Shown here in pieces: positions 25,654 through 31,340 of a stretch of 45,780 nt of DNA. Under the pieces are notes generated by a model. That model saw only the letters and a program-made list of their open reading frames with translations. It did no database searches and had not been told where the DNA came from. The stretch covers positions 1-45,780 of the forward strand of contig SOJN01000087.1 of assembly GCA_004376575.1 (NCBI GenBank), given 5' to 3'. Made by a program: the position numbers and the translations under genes. Within the stretch, counting starts at the first letter, position 1. The number at the start of each line of letters is the position of its first letter. Source of the stretch: a candidate division TA06 bacterium (lineage in GTDB: Bacteria > Hydrothermota > DG-26 > E44-bin18).

Positions 25654-27144
25654 ATGAAAGTATCATTGCTTAAGGACTCAATTGCTGACGTAAGCGAGGA
25701 CTGCATCGCGGTTTCGGTTTTCCAGGATGAAAAAACACTTTCGGGAGCGGCTGCCAAAGTTGACGGATCGCTTGGAGGCACCATTGCGAGTCTGATCAAA
25801 CAGGGCGAAATCAAAGGAAAGCTGGGTGAGACTACTGTAGTTCATACCATGGGAAAATTGCTCTCGGATAGGGTGATTGTTGTTGGTCTGGGAGAGAGGA
25901 GCAAGTTCAATGTAGAAGCAGCAAGATTTGCCGCAGGAAGTCTGGTGAGCAAGGCTAGAGCTCTTGGTGTAAAAGGTGTGGCCTCTGCGCTTCTTGGAGT
26001 GGGTGTGAAAGGAGTAACAGCCGAACTGTGTGCCCAAGCGATGACAGAAGGAGCAATTCTGGGCGCTTACAGTTTTGACAAATACAAGAAACCAGAAGAA
26101 ACTGCGATTGAATCGTTCAGTCTCGTGGAAGATAGAAAGGCAGCGGTCTCACAGGTTGAAAAGGGTCTGAAAAAAGGGGAAATACTGGCTCACGCCCAGA
26201 ATCTGGCAAGAGACCTGGCCAATGAGCCGAGCAACAATATGACACCGACAATACTGGCAGAGAGGGCCAAGGAAATCGCGAAGAAGTTCGGCATGAAAAT
26301 AGACATTCTCAGCGAGAAAGACGCGGAAAAGGAAGGCATGGGAGCATTCCTTGGGGTCGCCCGTGGCACAGACGAGCCAGCAAAGTTCATAGTCATGAGA
26401 TACAGGCCGTCTGATAAGAACGTCCTGGCGCTGGTGGGGAAAGGCATAACTTTTGACTCTGGCGGAATATCCATAAAGAGTTCCCAGGGCATGGGTGCTA
26501 TGAAGGCAGATATGTCCGGTGCAGCGGCAGTTCTGGGAGCAATGCGGGCAATTGCACAGCTCAAGCCAAAGATTGGGGTGATCGGAGTGATGCCCGCGAC
26601 TGAGAACATGCCCAGTGGACACGCACTGAAGCCGGGCGATGTTGTAAAGTCGCTGAGCGGAAAGACCATAGAAATAATAAGCACAGATGCGGAGGGGAGG
26701 CTGGCGCTTGCTGATGCCATATCCTATGCAAAGAAACTTGGGGCAAAGAGGATAGTTGATATTGCAACCCTTACTGGCGCGTGCTTTGTTGCCCTGGGAG
26801 AAATAACGAGTGGACTCATTTCTAACGACGATCGTCTTGCAGATCTTCTTTTGGATGTCTCAGAAAAGACCGGCGAGAAGATGTGGAGGCTTCCCACCTT
26901 TGATGAGTACGACGAACAGATAAAGAGCGATATCGCGGACATGAAAAACTCCGGCGGCCGGGCTGCCGGAACAATCACTGCGGGGATGTTCTTGAAGAGG
27001 TTCGTCGGAGATACATCCTGGGCACACATTGATATAGCGGGCAAGGAGTATTCAGAAAAGGCGAAGGGCTACCAGCAGAAAGGTACAACTGGCGTAGGCG
27101 CAAGATCGCTGGCTGAACTGGCTCTGAGGCTTTCCAGAAGATGA
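25654..27144 (+). CDS. pepA: Leucyl aminopeptidase (M17 family)
   Basis: A 496-residue cytosolic di-metal aminopeptidase that removes N-terminal residues from peptides. The catalytic C-terminal half is complete: Lys263 and Asp268 in VGKGITFDSGG, Lys275, Asp286 in MKADMSG, and Asp345, Glu347 and Arg349 in STDAEGRL. Each is seven positions below the E. coli PepA residue. Residues 185-200 carry the family signature LANEPSNNMTP. The start is the ATG at 25654 with GGAGG five bases upstream; a GTG two codons earlier lies within the SD. It is the first gene of a run of tightly packed plus-strand genes, and its stop codon overlaps the next start (ATGA), implying translational coupling with cutA. Confidence 0.97.
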   Translation: MKVSLLKDSIADVSEDCIAVSVFQDEKTLSGAAAKVDGSLGGTIASLIKQGEIKGKLGETTVVHTMGKLLSDRVIVVGLGERSKFNVEAARFAAGSLVSKARALGVKGVASALLGVGVKGVTAELCAQAMTEGAILGAYSFDKYKKPEETAIESFSLVEDRKAAVSQVEKGLKKGEILAHAQNLARDLANEPSNNMTPTILAERAKEIAKKFGMKIDILSEKDAEKEGMGAFLGVARGTDEPAKFIVMRYRPSDKNVLALVGKGITFDSGGISIKSSQGMGAMKADMSGAAAVLGAMRAIAQLKPKIGVIGVMPATENMPSGHALKPGDVVKSLSGKTIEIISTDAEGRLALADAISYAKKLGAKRIVDIATLTGACFVALGEITSGLISNDDRLADLLLDVSEKTGEKMWRLPTFDEYDEQIKSDIADMKNSGGRAAGTITAGMFLKRFVGDTSWAHIDIAGKEYSEKAKGYQQKGTTGVGARSLAELALRLSRR

Positions 27145-27452
27145 ACTACTTTGCAGTAATAACCACTTGCGGCAGTGAGGATGAGGCTCTCAGGATCGCC
27201 AATCACCTGCTCAATGAAAAGTTGATAGCATGTGCCAACTGGTGGCAGGTCAACTCTGCCTACTGGTGGGAAGGCAACTGTGAGCGGGCAGAAGAGTATA
27301 TGGTTTTCATGAAAACTGTGAAAAAGAACCTGAAGGCTGTTGAATCTGCCGTCGTCACCATGCACAGCTACGAGAACCCAGAAGTGATCCAGATTCCCAT
27401 TAGCGGCGGCTCGGAGAAGTACTTGGACTGGGTGAAGGAAAGCGTCAAATGA
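27141..27452 (+). CDS. cutA: CutA-like divalent ion tolerance protein
   Basis: A 103-residue protein of the CutA family, small trimeric cytosolic proteins linked to copper and other divalent metal tolerance. It shows the family pattern from the N-terminus (VITTCGSEDEALRIANHLL), through LIACAN and WWEGN to the C-terminal YENPEVIQIPISGG, where the Pro-Glu-Val-Ile segment is typical. The length is standard. Its ATG overlaps the pepA stop by four bases. The biochemical role of CutA outside metal tolerance is unsettled in the family itself. Confidence 0.93.
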   Translation: MNYFAVITTCGSEDEALRIANHLLNEKLIACANWWQVNSAYWWEGNCERAEEYMVFMKTVKKNLKAVESAVVTMHSYENPEVIQIPISGGSEKYLDWVKESVK

Positions 27453-27531: not shown

Positions 27532-27915
27532 ATGTCAGCCGGCAGAGTGGTGGGCATAGTCGTAGCGGGTATACTCCTGCTATTTGGGGTACTGTGGCTG
27601 CTGGCCGCGACTTCAAGCTCCGCTGAGAACGCATCGCCAGGCGGGAGATTCGTCGTAGGAATCATTCTATTGGTTATGGGTGGTCTACTCCTGTTCGCTG
27701 CTGTGAAAAAGCCAGCCAAAATAGAAGAAGAAAAGGAACTGACGATAGTGCAAAAAATAGAGCTCCCGGGTGATTTGAGACTGGAAGAGATGAAGTGTTC
27801 TTCCTGCGGCGCGAAACTGGACAAGGATTCGATCACCGTCAAAGCAGGGGCCGTGATGGTGTCTTGCGGGTACTGTGGTTCTCAATACAAAGTGGAAGAG
27901 GAGCCAAAATGGTGA
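27532..27915 (+). CDS. Small membrane protein with C-terminal zinc ribbon
   Basis: 127 residues. The start at 27532 has AGGAGG nine bases upstream; the frame is open another 20 codons without an SD. Two hydrophobic segments (about 5-27 and 38-57) form a hairpin in the membrane, joined by a short Ser/Gly loop. A charged linker follows, then a probable zinc-binding ribbon with CSSCG at about 93-97 and CGYCG at about 116-120, likely cytoplasmic. The last codons overlap the start of the DUF2207-type gene by seven bases, so the two are probably translated together. I do not recognise a named family; it may assist the membrane protein that follows. Confidence 0.85.
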   Translation: MSAGRVVGIVVAGILLLFGVLWLLAATSSSAENASPGGRFVVGIILLVMGGLLLFAAVKKPAKIEEEKELTIVQKIELPGDLRLEEMKCSSCGAKLDKDSITVKAGAVMVSCGYCGSQYKVEEEPKW

Positions 27916-29540
27916 ATTGGAGTAGCACCATGAAGATCAGAAACGCGGTGGTCGTACTTATGCTCCTGGGAACGGCTGTGGCCTTATTCCCAAATGGGGC
28001 CTCAGCGGATTATGATTTCTCTGTAAGGAAGAATCATGTTGACGTTTACATAGAACGTTCAGGCACGATAGGCATTTACTACGAATTGACATTCTTTTGT
28101 AGCCCTTCTGGAAAAGCTATCGACATAGTAGACATAGGAGTTCCGAACAAACACTATATCCTTTCTTCTGCTGCAGCGGACCTGGATGGCGTGAAACTCA
28201 AGAAGATACGGCGATCAGAATACGTGCACCCGGGCATTGAGATTCATCTTGGTGGAAAGAAAATTACTCCAGGAACTTCTGGTACTCTCCACTTCTATGT
28301 CGAATGCAAGCGCGTCCTCTACCAGGATACCGAGGATAAGACCTACACATCCTTTCGTTTTTCGCCCACATGGTTCAGCCCGAAGTTTGCCAGAGGAAAA
28401 ACAGACCTTCAGGTCTCCTTCCATTTTCCAGCGGGAGTCACACCTGACGAGACAAAGTGGCATCAAAAAGAGTTCGATGCACATTCATTAGATGATGAAA
28501 AAAGGATAGTCTTCACGTGGATAAACGCTTCTGCCTCACCCTCAAAACAGTATACCTATGGAATCTCCTTCCCGAAAAAGTATGTTGAACCCGGAGCAAT
28601 CGTGACAAAGAAAGCTGTCAGGCGGAGAAGTGTGTTCAAAACGATTGAAAACATCTTTCCGCTTCTTTTCGGGTTTTTTATGGTGTTCTTTGTTGCGATG
28701 ATAGGGGTAGTCGCTTCACTAACTCAGAAACGAAGGCTGATGAAGTACATGCCCCCGTCGCTTGCTATTGAGGGTGTCGGGATAAAGAGAGGTCTGACCG
28801 CTGTTGAAGCCGCGATACTTCTGGAAAAGCCCCTTGACAGGGTATGCACCATGATCCTTTTTGGGCTGCTGAAGAAGGATGCCCTAAGAGTAGTCAAGGC
28901 CAAACCTCTGAGATTGGAGGTTCTGGAAAAAAATAAGGAGAAGCTCCGAGAGTATGAATCATTGTTCCTGGTTGCCGTGGACAAAAAGGGTAGGGTTCCT
29001 GAGACAAAACTGAGAAAGGTGATTACCAGCCTCATCAAGGGGACCAATGAAAAGATGAAGGGCTTTTCCAGACGTGACACCAGAGAATACTATCGATCCA
29101 TTGTGAATAAGGCATGGGAGCAGGTTGCTTCCAGCGAGACAGAGGAGGTTGCGTCAGAAGTCCTGGACAGAGAAATGGAATGGTTGATTGCGGATGAGAG
29201 ATACGAGCAGAGGATGAAAGAGGCACTGGGGGATAGGGTGGTCATCGTCCCTGTGTGGTATCCAGGATACAGAACTGGTGCTGCTGCTGGAGCTCCGGGT
29301 CCGGGAATCTCCGTTCCTTCATTGCCCGGTTCAGAATTTGCCAATTCGGTCGTTCGGTCTGTTGAGGGTTTTGCTCATGGGCTCGTTAGCAAGGTTGAGT
29401 CCTTTACCGGAGGCATAACGAAAGTGACAAACCCTCCTCCCGCAAAGTCAGGGTCTTCCTGGTCATCCGGGGGGTCCGGGTGCGCTTGTGCATGTGCGTG
29501 CGCTGGGTGTGCCTGCGCGTGTGCAGGAGGTGGACGGTGA
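27909..29540 (+). CDS. DUF2207-type membrane protein with Cys-Ala repeat tail
   Basis: 543 residues from the ATG at 27909, with GAGGAG upstream; an ATG seven codons later at 27930 also has a good SD (GGAG, 7 nt). The signal peptide ends near ASA-DY. Residues about 33-235 are the extracytoplasmic DUF2207-like domain (YDFSVRKNHVDVYIERSG). One strong membrane segment (about 247-270) is followed by KRR, placing the rest inside the cell. The cytoplasmic part has charged helices, then a Pro/Gly/Ser linker and a tail of seven cysteines in CACACACAG and CACACAGGGR. The codons for the Cys and Ala residues vary (TGC/TGT; GCT, GCA, GCG, GCC), so the tail is maintained as protein rather than as a DNA repeat. 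A radical SAM gene follows 52 bases later. Confidence 0.87.
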   Translation: MVNWSSTMKIRNAVVVLMLLGTAVALFPNGASADYDFSVRKNHVDVYIERSGTIGIYYELTFFCSPSGKAIDIVDIGVPNKHYILSSAAADLDGVKLKKIRRSEYVHPGIEIHLGGKKITPGTSGTLHFYVECKRVLYQDTEDKTYTSFRFSPTWFSPKFARGKTDLQVSFHFPAGVTPDETKWHQKEFDAHSLDDEKRIVFTWINASASPSKQYTYGISFPKKYVEPGAIVTKKAVRRRSVFKTIENIFPLLFGFFMVFFVAMIGVVASLTQKRRLMKYMPPSLAIEGVGIKRGLTAVEAAILLEKPLDRVCTMILFGLLKKDALRVVKAKPLRLEVLEKNKEKLREYESLFLVAVDKKGRVPETKLRKVITSLIKGTNEKMKGFSRRDTREYYRSIVNKAWEQVASSETEEVASEVLDREMEWLIADERYEQRMKEALGDRVVIVPVWYPGYRTGAAAGAPGPGISVPSLPGSEFANSVVRSVEGFAHGLVSKVESFTGGITKVTNPPPAKSGSSWSSGGSGCACACACAGCACACAGGGR

Positions 29541-29592
29541 GCTTCAGTCGACAGAACAACCCGAAATCTGTTCTTCTTTCAAGGAGGAGAAG

Positions 29593-30945
29593 TTGCCACT
29601 GAAAGTGAAGAAGTGGTTTGAACGACCAAAGCCCTTGTCAAAGGGGATGTATCATCTGAGGGCTGAAGGTGAGTTTGGCGGCTACAGGCTTCATCTGAGA
29701 ATAGAAAATGATGGGAGAGGTATTCTGCTTGTCGATGCGTCAAAGGTTCTCCATCTGAATCAGACCGCGGCTGAGCTTGCCATGCACATCATAGAAGCAA
29801 CTCCTGTAGAAGATATGATTTCCCAGATGAGGAAGAGGTACAAGGTCGATGCTGAGGCGCTCCGCAAGGATTACGAAAAGATGAAACAGACCATATCTGA
29901 CCTTGCAAGGACAGATGATGTTTGCCCTATCACGTATCTTGATGTGGAAAGGATAGAGCCCTTTAACACGCCTGTCAGTGCCCCCTATAGAATGGATTTG
30001 GCGCTCACATACAAGTGTGAAAACGATTGCAAGCACTGCTATGTGGCCAGGGACAAGAACATGCCCTCTCTTTCTGTGGAAGATTGGAAAAGGGTGCTCA
30101 AGAGGTTGTGGGATGTGGGAATACCTCACGTCTGCTTCACCGGTGGCGAGGCTACGCTTTTCGCTGGTCTATTGGATTTGGTTGACTATGCTGAAGAACT
30201 GGGAATGGTGACTGGCCTTCTCACCAATGGAAGAAGCCTGGGCCAGCTCGATTTCGTGAAAAACCTTGAACAGGCAGGTCTTGATCACATCCAGATTACG
30301 CTCGAATCCCACGATAAGAAGATCCACGACACTATTGTGGGATGTCCGGGCTGGAGGCAGACGGTAAATGGGATAAAGAACGCAATCAGCACACAGGTTT
30401 ATACAATCACCAACACGACCATAACCAGATTGAATGAACCGGCAATAGAAAGGACGATCAAGTTCATCCGAGATCTGGGCGTAAAGACCTTCGCGGCAAA
30501 CGGCTTGATATTCACAGGCAAGGGAGAGTATTCTGGATTGGGATTCACTGAAAAGGAACTTGTCCCGATCGTGACCAGGATAAGGGATACTGCGAGAAAA
30601 CTCGGCATGAGGTTCATATGGTACACTCCAACTCAGTACAAGAATTTCGATCCCGTAGCTCTCGACCTAGGCCCCAAGGCCTGTACTGCGGCCAAATACA
30701 ACATGTGCATCGAACCTGACGGTAGCGTGATACCGTGTCAGAGTTGGTATGAGCCGATTGGAAATATTTTGACTGACAGTTGGGACAATATATGGAACTC
30801 GGAGCTGGCCACTAAGATTAGGAACAAAGAGATGATAATGGATGAGTGCAAAACCTGTGAAGATCTTCCCATATGCGGAGGCGGCTGCCCTCTCTACAAT
30901 AGCGCGAACGAGTACCTTTGCACGGAATCCAAGTCTGCAGGATGA
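29593..30945 (+). CDS. Radical SAM/SPASM maturase with N-terminal PqqD-like domain
   Basis: 450 residues from a TTG at 29593 with GGAGG five bases upstream. The frame is open back to 29488 inside the preceding gene, but no SD supports an earlier start. Residues about 31-105 resemble PqqD/RRE peptide-recognition domains (LVDASKVLHLNQTAAELA). The radical SAM cluster is Cys142, Cys146, Cys149 in CENDCKHCY, and FTGGEATL follows as the SAM-binding GGE motif. The C-terminus has a SPASM-like cysteine set (CTAAKYNMC, VIPC, CKTCEDLPICGGGC, one more C near the end) for auxiliary iron-sulfur clusters. Enzymes of this build modify peptide or protein substrates; the obvious candidate here is the Cys-Ala tail of the gene just upstream. 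From memory, curated family collections include a radical SAM group paired with C-rich tail proteins, which this may match. Confidence 0.93.
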   Translation: MPLKVKKWFERPKPLSKGMYHLRAEGEFGGYRLHLRIENDGRGILLVDASKVLHLNQTAAELAMHIIEATPVEDMISQMRKRYKVDAEALRKDYEKMKQTISDLARTDDVCPITYLDVERIEPFNTPVSAPYRMDLALTYKCENDCKHCYVARDKNMPSLSVEDWKRVLKRLWDVGIPHVCFTGGEATLFAGLLDLVDYAEELGMVTGLLTNGRSLGQLDFVKNLEQAGLDHIQITLESHDKKIHDTIVGCPGWRQTVNGIKNAISTQVYTITNTTITRLNEPAIERTIKFIRDLGVKTFAANGLIFTGKGEYSGLGFTEKELVPIVTRIRDTARKLGMRFIWYTPTQYKNFDPVALDLGPKACTAAKYNMCIEPDGSVIPCQSWYEPIGNILTDSWDNIWNSELATKIRNKEMIMDECKTCEDLPICGGGCPLYNSANEYLCTESKSAG

Positions 30946-31340
30946 AAGGCGAGACAGAGATAAGAGCTCGGTACGCTGATACCGACCAGATGGGTGTCGT
31001 CTATTATTCGAAGTACCTCGAGTACTTCGAAGTTGGGAGGACGGAACTTCTTCGGGGGCTCGGGCTTCCATATACAGAGCTCGAGTCTAAAGGGATTCAC
31101 CTTCCAGTTGTTGAATGCACATGCTGCTATAAGCGTCCGGCGCGGTATGATGATGTGCTCACCATCGTCACCACTATTGGAAACGTGGGGAGAGCTTCTA
31201 TACGCATGGATTACGAGATCTACAGGAAAGGAGACTCAAAGCTGCTTGCATCAGGGTTTACAAGACATGCTTCAGTCAACTCCGATGGCAAGCCCGTGTC
31301 AATGCCTGAGGCAATGAGGGCAAAGCTCAAACAGGAGTAG
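30942..31340 (+). CDS. Acyl-CoA thioesterase, YbgC/4-hydroxybenzoyl-CoA type
   Basis: A 132-residue single hotdog-fold protein. The signature YADTDQMGVVYYSKYLEYFE (about 9-28) contains the catalytic Asp of the DxxGVVYY motif found in YbgC-type thioesterases. The remaining strands (VVECTCCYKRPARYDD, SIRMDYEIYR) fit the fold and the length is standard. The ATG at 30942 overlaps the stop of the radical SAM gene by four bases (ATGA); an upstream open stretch of eight codons has no SD. It hydrolyses a short-chain or aromatic acyl-CoA; the substrate cannot be told from sequence. Overlap with the maturase gene suggests shared transcription, not necessarily shared function. Confidence 0.92.
   Translation: MKGETEIRARYADTDQMGVVYYSKYLEYFEVGRTELLRGLGLPYTELESKGIHLPVVECTCCYKRPARYDDVLTIVTTIGNVGRASIRMDYEIYRKGDSKLLASGFTRHASVNSDGKPVSMPEAMRAKLKQE

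Follow-up and report, generated by a model that had tools for sequence, protein, structure and literature searches.

The locus described here lies in a 45,780-nt stretch of DNA from a candidate division TA06 bacterium (contig SOJN01000087.1 of assembly GCA_004376575.1; this whole stretch is called the window below). It consists of three genes on the forward strand, which encode a membrane protein with a zinc ribbon (P0003), a large membrane protein that ends in a cysteine-repeat tail (P0001), and an enzyme with PqqD, radical S-adenosylmethionine (SAM) and SPASM domains (P0002), and it is the relation between the tail and the enzyme that concerns us. An initial annotation, made from the sequence alone, had placed the three genes within 27532–30945, with the zinc-ribbon gene overlapping its neighbor from upstream; this arrangement was borne out, the overlap being of 7 bases (Table 1).

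Table 1. Genes and features of the tailed locus, with positions in the window
Feature	Positions	Strand	Basis or remark
P0003, two-transmembrane protein, C-terminal zinc ribbon (CSSCG...CGYCG; CxxC...CxxC)	27532..27915	+	first gene of CA-type operon
P0001, tailed membrane protein, 543 aa	27909..29540	+	remote DUF2207 homologue
P0001 beta-sheet ectodomain, residues ~35-222	28011..28574	+	AlphaFold2, Foldseek
P0001 second membrane helix, residues 242-278, C-terminal side predicted cytoplasmic	28632..28742	+	AlphaFold2 helix; charge bias, 100 relatives
P0001 cytosolic winged-helix-like domain, residues ~279-440	28743..29228	+	AlphaFold2
P0001 conserved pre-tail helices ending FTxxVTxxTNPxP, residues ~474-510	29328..29438	+	AlphaFold2
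P0001 tail GCACACACAGCACACAGGGR, residues 524-543, seven Cys, putative radical SAM substrate	29478..29537	+	
Shine-Dalgarno AAGGAGGAG for the TTG start at 29593	29581..29589	+	sequence
P0002, PqqD/radical SAM/SPASM enzyme, 450 aa, putative tail-modifying	29593..30945	+	TTG start
P0002 PqqD-like (RRE) domain, residues 47-97	29731..29883	+	PF05402, E 8e-7
P0002 CX3CX2C motif, SAM-cleaving [4Fe-4S] cluster	30016..30039	+	sequence
P0002 SPASM domain with all seven Cys of the pattern, expected to hold two auxiliary clusters	30682..30924	+	PF13186, E 1.3e-11; sequence

The domains of P0002 all score above the Pfam cut-offs (PF05402, PqqD; PF04055, Radical_SAM; PF13186, SPASM), which together with the cysteine motifs in its sequence confirms how this gene had first been described. 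The combination of PqqD/RRE, CX3CX2C and SPASM is that of the RRE-radical SAM-SPASM maturases of ribosomally synthesized and post-translationally modified peptides (RiPPs), and among solved structures P0002 is closest to SkfB, which forms thioethers (1.5e-19), with PqqE next. P0001, as modeled by AlphaFold2 (mean predicted local distance difference test score 88), runs from a signal sequence or first transmembrane (TM) segment through a beta ectodomain, a second TM helix, a winged-helix-like cytosolic domain and a linker to the Cys tail, with two helices before the tail and the tail itself disordered. The ectodomain resembles the N-terminal domains of M1 aminopeptidases and ribophorin I/OST chains in Foldseek comparisons, which we take as a resemblance of fold, with no claim of enzyme activity. 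A cytoplasmic location of the tail had been proposed from the positive-inside rule; in P0001 alone the rule is ambiguous, because basic residues flank the membrane segment on either side, but across 100 relatives it gives a clear answer, the mean charge around the second TM helix being -0.36 before and +3.96 after it, with 92 of the 100 fitting an inside C-terminus. The tail is thus predicted to be cytoplasmic as well as disordered.

The initial annotation called P0001 a DUF2207 protein, which holds only as remote homology. P0001 does not match Pfam DUF2207 (PF09972) at E≤0.1, no PF09972 protein is encoded in its genome, and its body has no Pfam or NCBIfam family above cut-off and no match in a sequence search of solved structures. 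A profile-profile comparison of the P0001 family with DUF2207 nevertheless gave an hhalign probability of 98–99% (E 7e-15 to 9e-22, for a single comparison) over 318–329 columns that span the ectodomain, TM helix and cytosolic domain; only this comparison reveals the kinship, and P0001 is better regarded as distantly related to DUF2207 than as a member of it. The two share a common fold family and are both rich in Gly/Ser near the C-terminus, but ordinary DUF2207 proteins of the window's phylum (L170–L189) mostly end in poly-Gly-Trp without a Cys repeat, and the Cys tails seem to have taken the place of that conserved poly-Gly-Trp ending.

A first scan, which found 80 loci in Chloroflexota, Cloacimonadota, Zixibacteria, Coatesbacteria, Edwardsbacteria, Acidobacteria and others, was biased on the tail because the tail itself partly served as search pattern. 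Searches with the core only, and no tail in the query, covered 147 genomes of the window's phylum, 251 of Chloroflexota and 247 of the phylum of the Acidobacteria locus, and every complete relative of full architecture that they returned ends in a Cys-repeat tail. Those without a tail are fragments that were cut at a contig end or frameshifted (L083, L093, L138, L168, L169), besides two paralogs with only part of the domains (L140, L141), whose genomes also carry a tailed copy. Three types of tail occur among 142 distinct proteins. The CA tail of P0001 is found in 110, with variants that differ by one Cys-Ala unit more or less; the CHSA1 tail, in 29, has 48 residues with 11 Cys, ends in VSGGAH, and is near-invariant across families and phyla (L088–L110, L160–L166; e.g. 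L110:841-2364); and the CHSA2 tail, in three (L139, L142, L167), is looser and irregular, with CHSAC and VHDAC units and an adjoining radical SAM gene. The bodies of CA and CHSA class proteins are 17–20% identical, the winged-helix-like domain being the part best conserved between them.

The tail of P0001 (SGGSGCACACACAGCACACAGGGR) contains seven Cys encoded by mixed synonymous codons, from which selection at the protein level had already been deduced for this one gene, and the wider collection upholds it: the 76 CA tails that share one 20-aa sequence derive from 75 distinct stretches of DNA, and the 29 CHSA1 tails from 29. Synonymous sites of the tails are thus saturated while the protein stays frozen across phyla, to the exact C-termini, GGGR in the CA class and SGGAH in CHSA1. 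Among the 251 Chloroflexota genomes, the exact CA motif turns up a single time in every one of the 16 with a CA-tailed protein and never in the 235 others, and a control with the reversed pattern gave 0 matches; the CHSA motif occurs in 22 of the 147 genomes of the window's phylum, every one of them core-positive; and in the genomes scanned the exact motifs are on no other protein. The frozen tail on saturated synonymous sites, together with a motif exclusive to this protein, excludes a chance origin.

The tail is as closely tied to the enzyme as it is to its scaffold. The initial annotation had itself named the counter-case, CA-tailed proteins without a radical SAM neighbor, and it was not borne out: a PqqD/radical SAM partner adjoins in 103 of 110 CA loci, 26 of 29 CHSA1 and two of three CHSA2, or 131 of the 142. 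Most loci come from metagenome assemblies. The loci that lack an adjoining partner are accounted for by contig ends (L004 and L020 stop there), assembly gaps (the enzyme of L017 is broken by a run of N), a different gene order (enzyme upstream in L159 and L038, 2.4 kb downstream in L059) or an enzyme elsewhere in the genome (L009, L065, L106, L107, L166; for L015 it is the active enzyme that lies elsewhere). At the level of genomes in the window's phylum (threshold E≤1e-30), the enzyme is present in 29/29 tail-positive and 2/118 tail-negative genomes, and in the two enzyme-only cases (G079, G082) it sits at a contig edge. Most of family f22 has both genes, and the four members without either (G078, G084, G090, G091) are cases of joint loss. 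In a quick tree of the enzymes, the partners of CHSA and CA tails form separate clades (97 and 99 by Shimodaira-Hasegawa approximate likelihood-ratio test). That the tail is the substrate of the adjoining enzyme, as had been suggested, is supported by this pairing at the loci and by the co-occurrence in genomes. As a separate observation, L159 (G435:C229) has a divergent CA tail with its arms swapped (GCACACAGCACACACAGGGR), and its changed gene order, active enzyme upstream, includes another radical-SAM-like gene.

Two further components vary with lineage or tail class. Where there is room for it, the zinc-ribbon gene lies upstream in 100 of 105 CA loci and in none of 27 CHSA loci, and is thus a component of the CA class. 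A second radical-SAM-like gene is found downstream in 52 CA loci of Chloroflexota (for example L035 and L063, where it follows the active enzyme), and these paralogs form one clade with a support of 100. The CX3CX2C motif is kept in the active partner enzyme (RS1) and lost in all RS2 paralogs; none of 46 scored Chloroflexota paralogs keeps CX3CX2C or the SPASM cysteines, and PqqD is retained in the one copy tested. G013 and G014 (L224, L225) likewise contain paralogs without the motif, in these cases unlinked. Judged by its lost motifs the Chloroflexota paralog would be catalytically dead, and such paralogs are probably substrate-binding helpers. At Anaerolineae loci a class I SAM methyltransferase gene (L035:12209-12992 is an example) follows the tail gene at a distance of ~2.7 kb, beyond the paired radical SAM genes; it is conserved in 36 of 60 long loci and may represent further tailoring or mere synteny.

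The reading we prefer, and hold with fair confidence, is that of a two-part system in which the radical SAM enzyme modifies the frozen cytoplasmic tail of the membrane protein. Beyond the tail being the substrate, the steps are ones that we infer. The disordered Cys-repeat tail of a one-pass membrane protein from the DUF2207 superfamily would be exposed in the cytoplasm, where the dedicated enzyme would bind it, probably through the PqqD (RRE) domain together with the conserved pre-tail segment, for which FTxxVTxxTNPxP is a candidate recognition element; SAM cleavage would then lead to abstraction of hydrogens from the tail. It is very probable that the tail is modified at all, and a Cys-repeat core with a PqqD/SPASM radical SAM enzyme points to chemistry at alpha carbons. 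The likeliest product would be a set of thioether (sactionine) links from Cys sulfur to Ala alpha carbon, nested as a hairpin around the central Gly (C4-G-C3), although whether the product is a thioether seems to us an even call. It is the leading guess because SkfB is the closest solved relative, Ala is an accepted acceptor, and QhpD acts on real proteins. Alanine serves in the sactionines Cys5-Ala12 of RumC1 and Cys9-Ala25 of Trn-beta (PMC8172795) and is accepted by SkfB (PMC8326336), and the radical SAM enzyme QhpD makes thioethers within QhpC of quinohemoprotein amine dehydrogenase (PMC8172795), although QhpC, unlike P0001, is a soluble secreted subunit without a repeat tail, joined from Cys to the methylene carbons of Asp/Glu. 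On balance we expect the modified tail to stay attached, as a fixed device at the cytoplasmic face of the membrane, and only tentatively do we suggest a role in metal or redox chemistry.

Several points weigh against this reading. The evidence comes from sequences, genomes and structure models, and the Fisher p of 1e-28 for co-occurrence ignores kinship. P0002 falls below every NCBIfam equivalog cut-off (the best, PqqE, at 108.9 bits against 381), leaving a superfamily match only, and its similarity to SkfB does not fix the chemistry, as PqqE, which makes a C-C bond, comes next. Cys residues occur in both arms of the CA tail whereas classical sactipeptides have them mainly in one half, the CHSA tails show no obvious hairpin, and no metal or redox genes are conserved as neighbors of the loci.

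The alternative that survives best, although we think it unlikely, is a route in which cleavage follows modification and the tail is released as a small cofactor or peptide, as with pyrroloquinoline quinone or mycofactocin, the membrane protein being a precursor carrier. The resemblance of the PqqD/SPASM enzyme to PqqE, the exactly conserved C-termini and the variable Gly/Ser linker that precedes the tail would all suit such a route, which sits less well with conservation of the 500-residue body (ectodomain, TM helix, winged-helix-like domain) together with the tail and with a neighborhood in which no peptidase or exporter is conserved. Less probable still is that the tail binds Zn, Cu, Cd or Fe-S through unmodified thiolates, with the enzyme acting on something else in the same pathway: Cys-rich and Cys/His-rich tails do suit soft metals, and the CA operon does encode a zinc-ribbon protein, but metal sites tolerate shifts in spacing whereas these tails are frozen including their Ala, Ser and last residues, the enzyme clade follows the tail type, and the neighborhood shows no conserved metal transporter or regulator. 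For docking, an array of seven to eleven Cys at regular intervals would be needless, and the tails look like repeat cores, so that a docking or activating peptide for an enzyme whose real substrate is another molecule or protein strikes us as highly improbable; because the dead paralog retains its PqqD domain, binding without catalysis must matter somewhere, but no other Cys-repeat peptide is encoded at the loci, where the only candidates were other-frame reads of the tails and chance matches. Plain lineage conservation of a membrane operon and a radical SAM neighbor without functional link is barely credible, for although other neighbors too are conserved in part of Chloroflexota, they vary while the pairing stays, and the pairing holds when the genes are unlinked, across several phyla and with joint loss in f22.

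Compared with known RiPP systems, P0001 and P0002 have a dedicated, genetically linked precursor with a conserved core; in place of a short precursor with removable leader and protease release there is a full-size membrane protein. The nearest precedent is the proposal that TIGR04222 membrane proteins, whose Cys-rich C-termini lie beside MNIO enzymes, are protein-sized substrates (PMC12452194). These too are multi-domain membrane proteins (70–643 residues) with an unstructured Ser/Gly/Cys C-terminus and an adjoining gene for a RiPP-type enzyme, but their tails are predicted to be periplasmic, are irregular and in many cases have no Cys, and the enzyme is missing from a third of genomes, whereas in the P0001 family the tail is frozen and predicted cytoplasmic, and a radical SAM enzyme is paired with it in every case that could be followed. 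TIGR04222 itself does not match P0001, and the relative L035 reaches 18.1 bits against a cut-off of 43. MNIO (PF05114) is absent from all 147 genomes of the window's phylum, that of the window included, in searches whose positive controls matched, so that it was rejected there as an alternative modifying enzyme. SkfB/AlbA-type sactisynthases share with P0002 the domain order (RRE, radical SAM, Twitch/SPASM), the closest solved structure and a Cys-containing substrate, yet theirs are short leader-core peptides and the putative substrate of P0002 is the tail of a membrane protein. Asp-Cys repeat peptides also occur with radical SAM enzymes (PMC9062424). ACGX-repeat (TIGR04340) and similar systems likewise place a radical SAM/SPASM enzyme beside a regularly spaced Cys-repeat substrate, and the CHSA partner enzyme matches TIGR04340 at 2.2e-37, yet with 129 bits against a cut-off of 400. 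ACGX-repeat substrates, unlike P0001, are short stand-alone peptides. The initial annotation had suspected a curated family joining radical SAM enzymes to such C-rich tails; none was found for either tail in NCBIfam 20.0, and in open-licence papers, where sequences that are not printed escape a string search, we found no literature on the tail strings or on DUF2207 with radical SAM.

It is tempting to speculate that these proteins represent a new class of membrane-anchored prosthetic group built by radical SAM chemistry, a proposal we make tentatively, in which the whole tail would become a fixed, cofactor-like structure in the cytoplasm, cross-linked and perhaps able to bind metal; a single scaffold would carry three tail codes or more (CA, CHSA1, CHSA2), each matched by an enzyme clade of its own, with a dead paralog assisting in Chloroflexota. 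Tails of 20 and 48 residues so frozen imply a precise chemical structure. Radical SAM peptide chemistry would thereby reach beyond small secreted peptides and take in a constant portion of a large membrane protein, within a system spread over several phyla, mainly in uncultured lineages; the tail codes with their matched enzyme clades amount to a natural experiment in substrate specificity, and the DUF2207 superfamily gains a biochemical handle. The structure of the tail is directly testable, since the system comprises two genes, the peptide at the C-terminus is short, and some hosts are in culture, which among the matches are Bellilinea caldifistulae GOMI-1, Levilinea saccharolytica KIBI-1, Ornatilinea apprima P3M-1 and Leptolinea sp. 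HRD-7.

At the window locus itself, a CutA-like gene (27141-27452) just upstream of the zinc-ribbon gene is not a conserved neighbor elsewhere, and a gene for a YbgC-like thioesterase, likewise not kept at other loci, occupies 30942-31340 and overlaps the stop codon of the radical SAM gene (ATGA).

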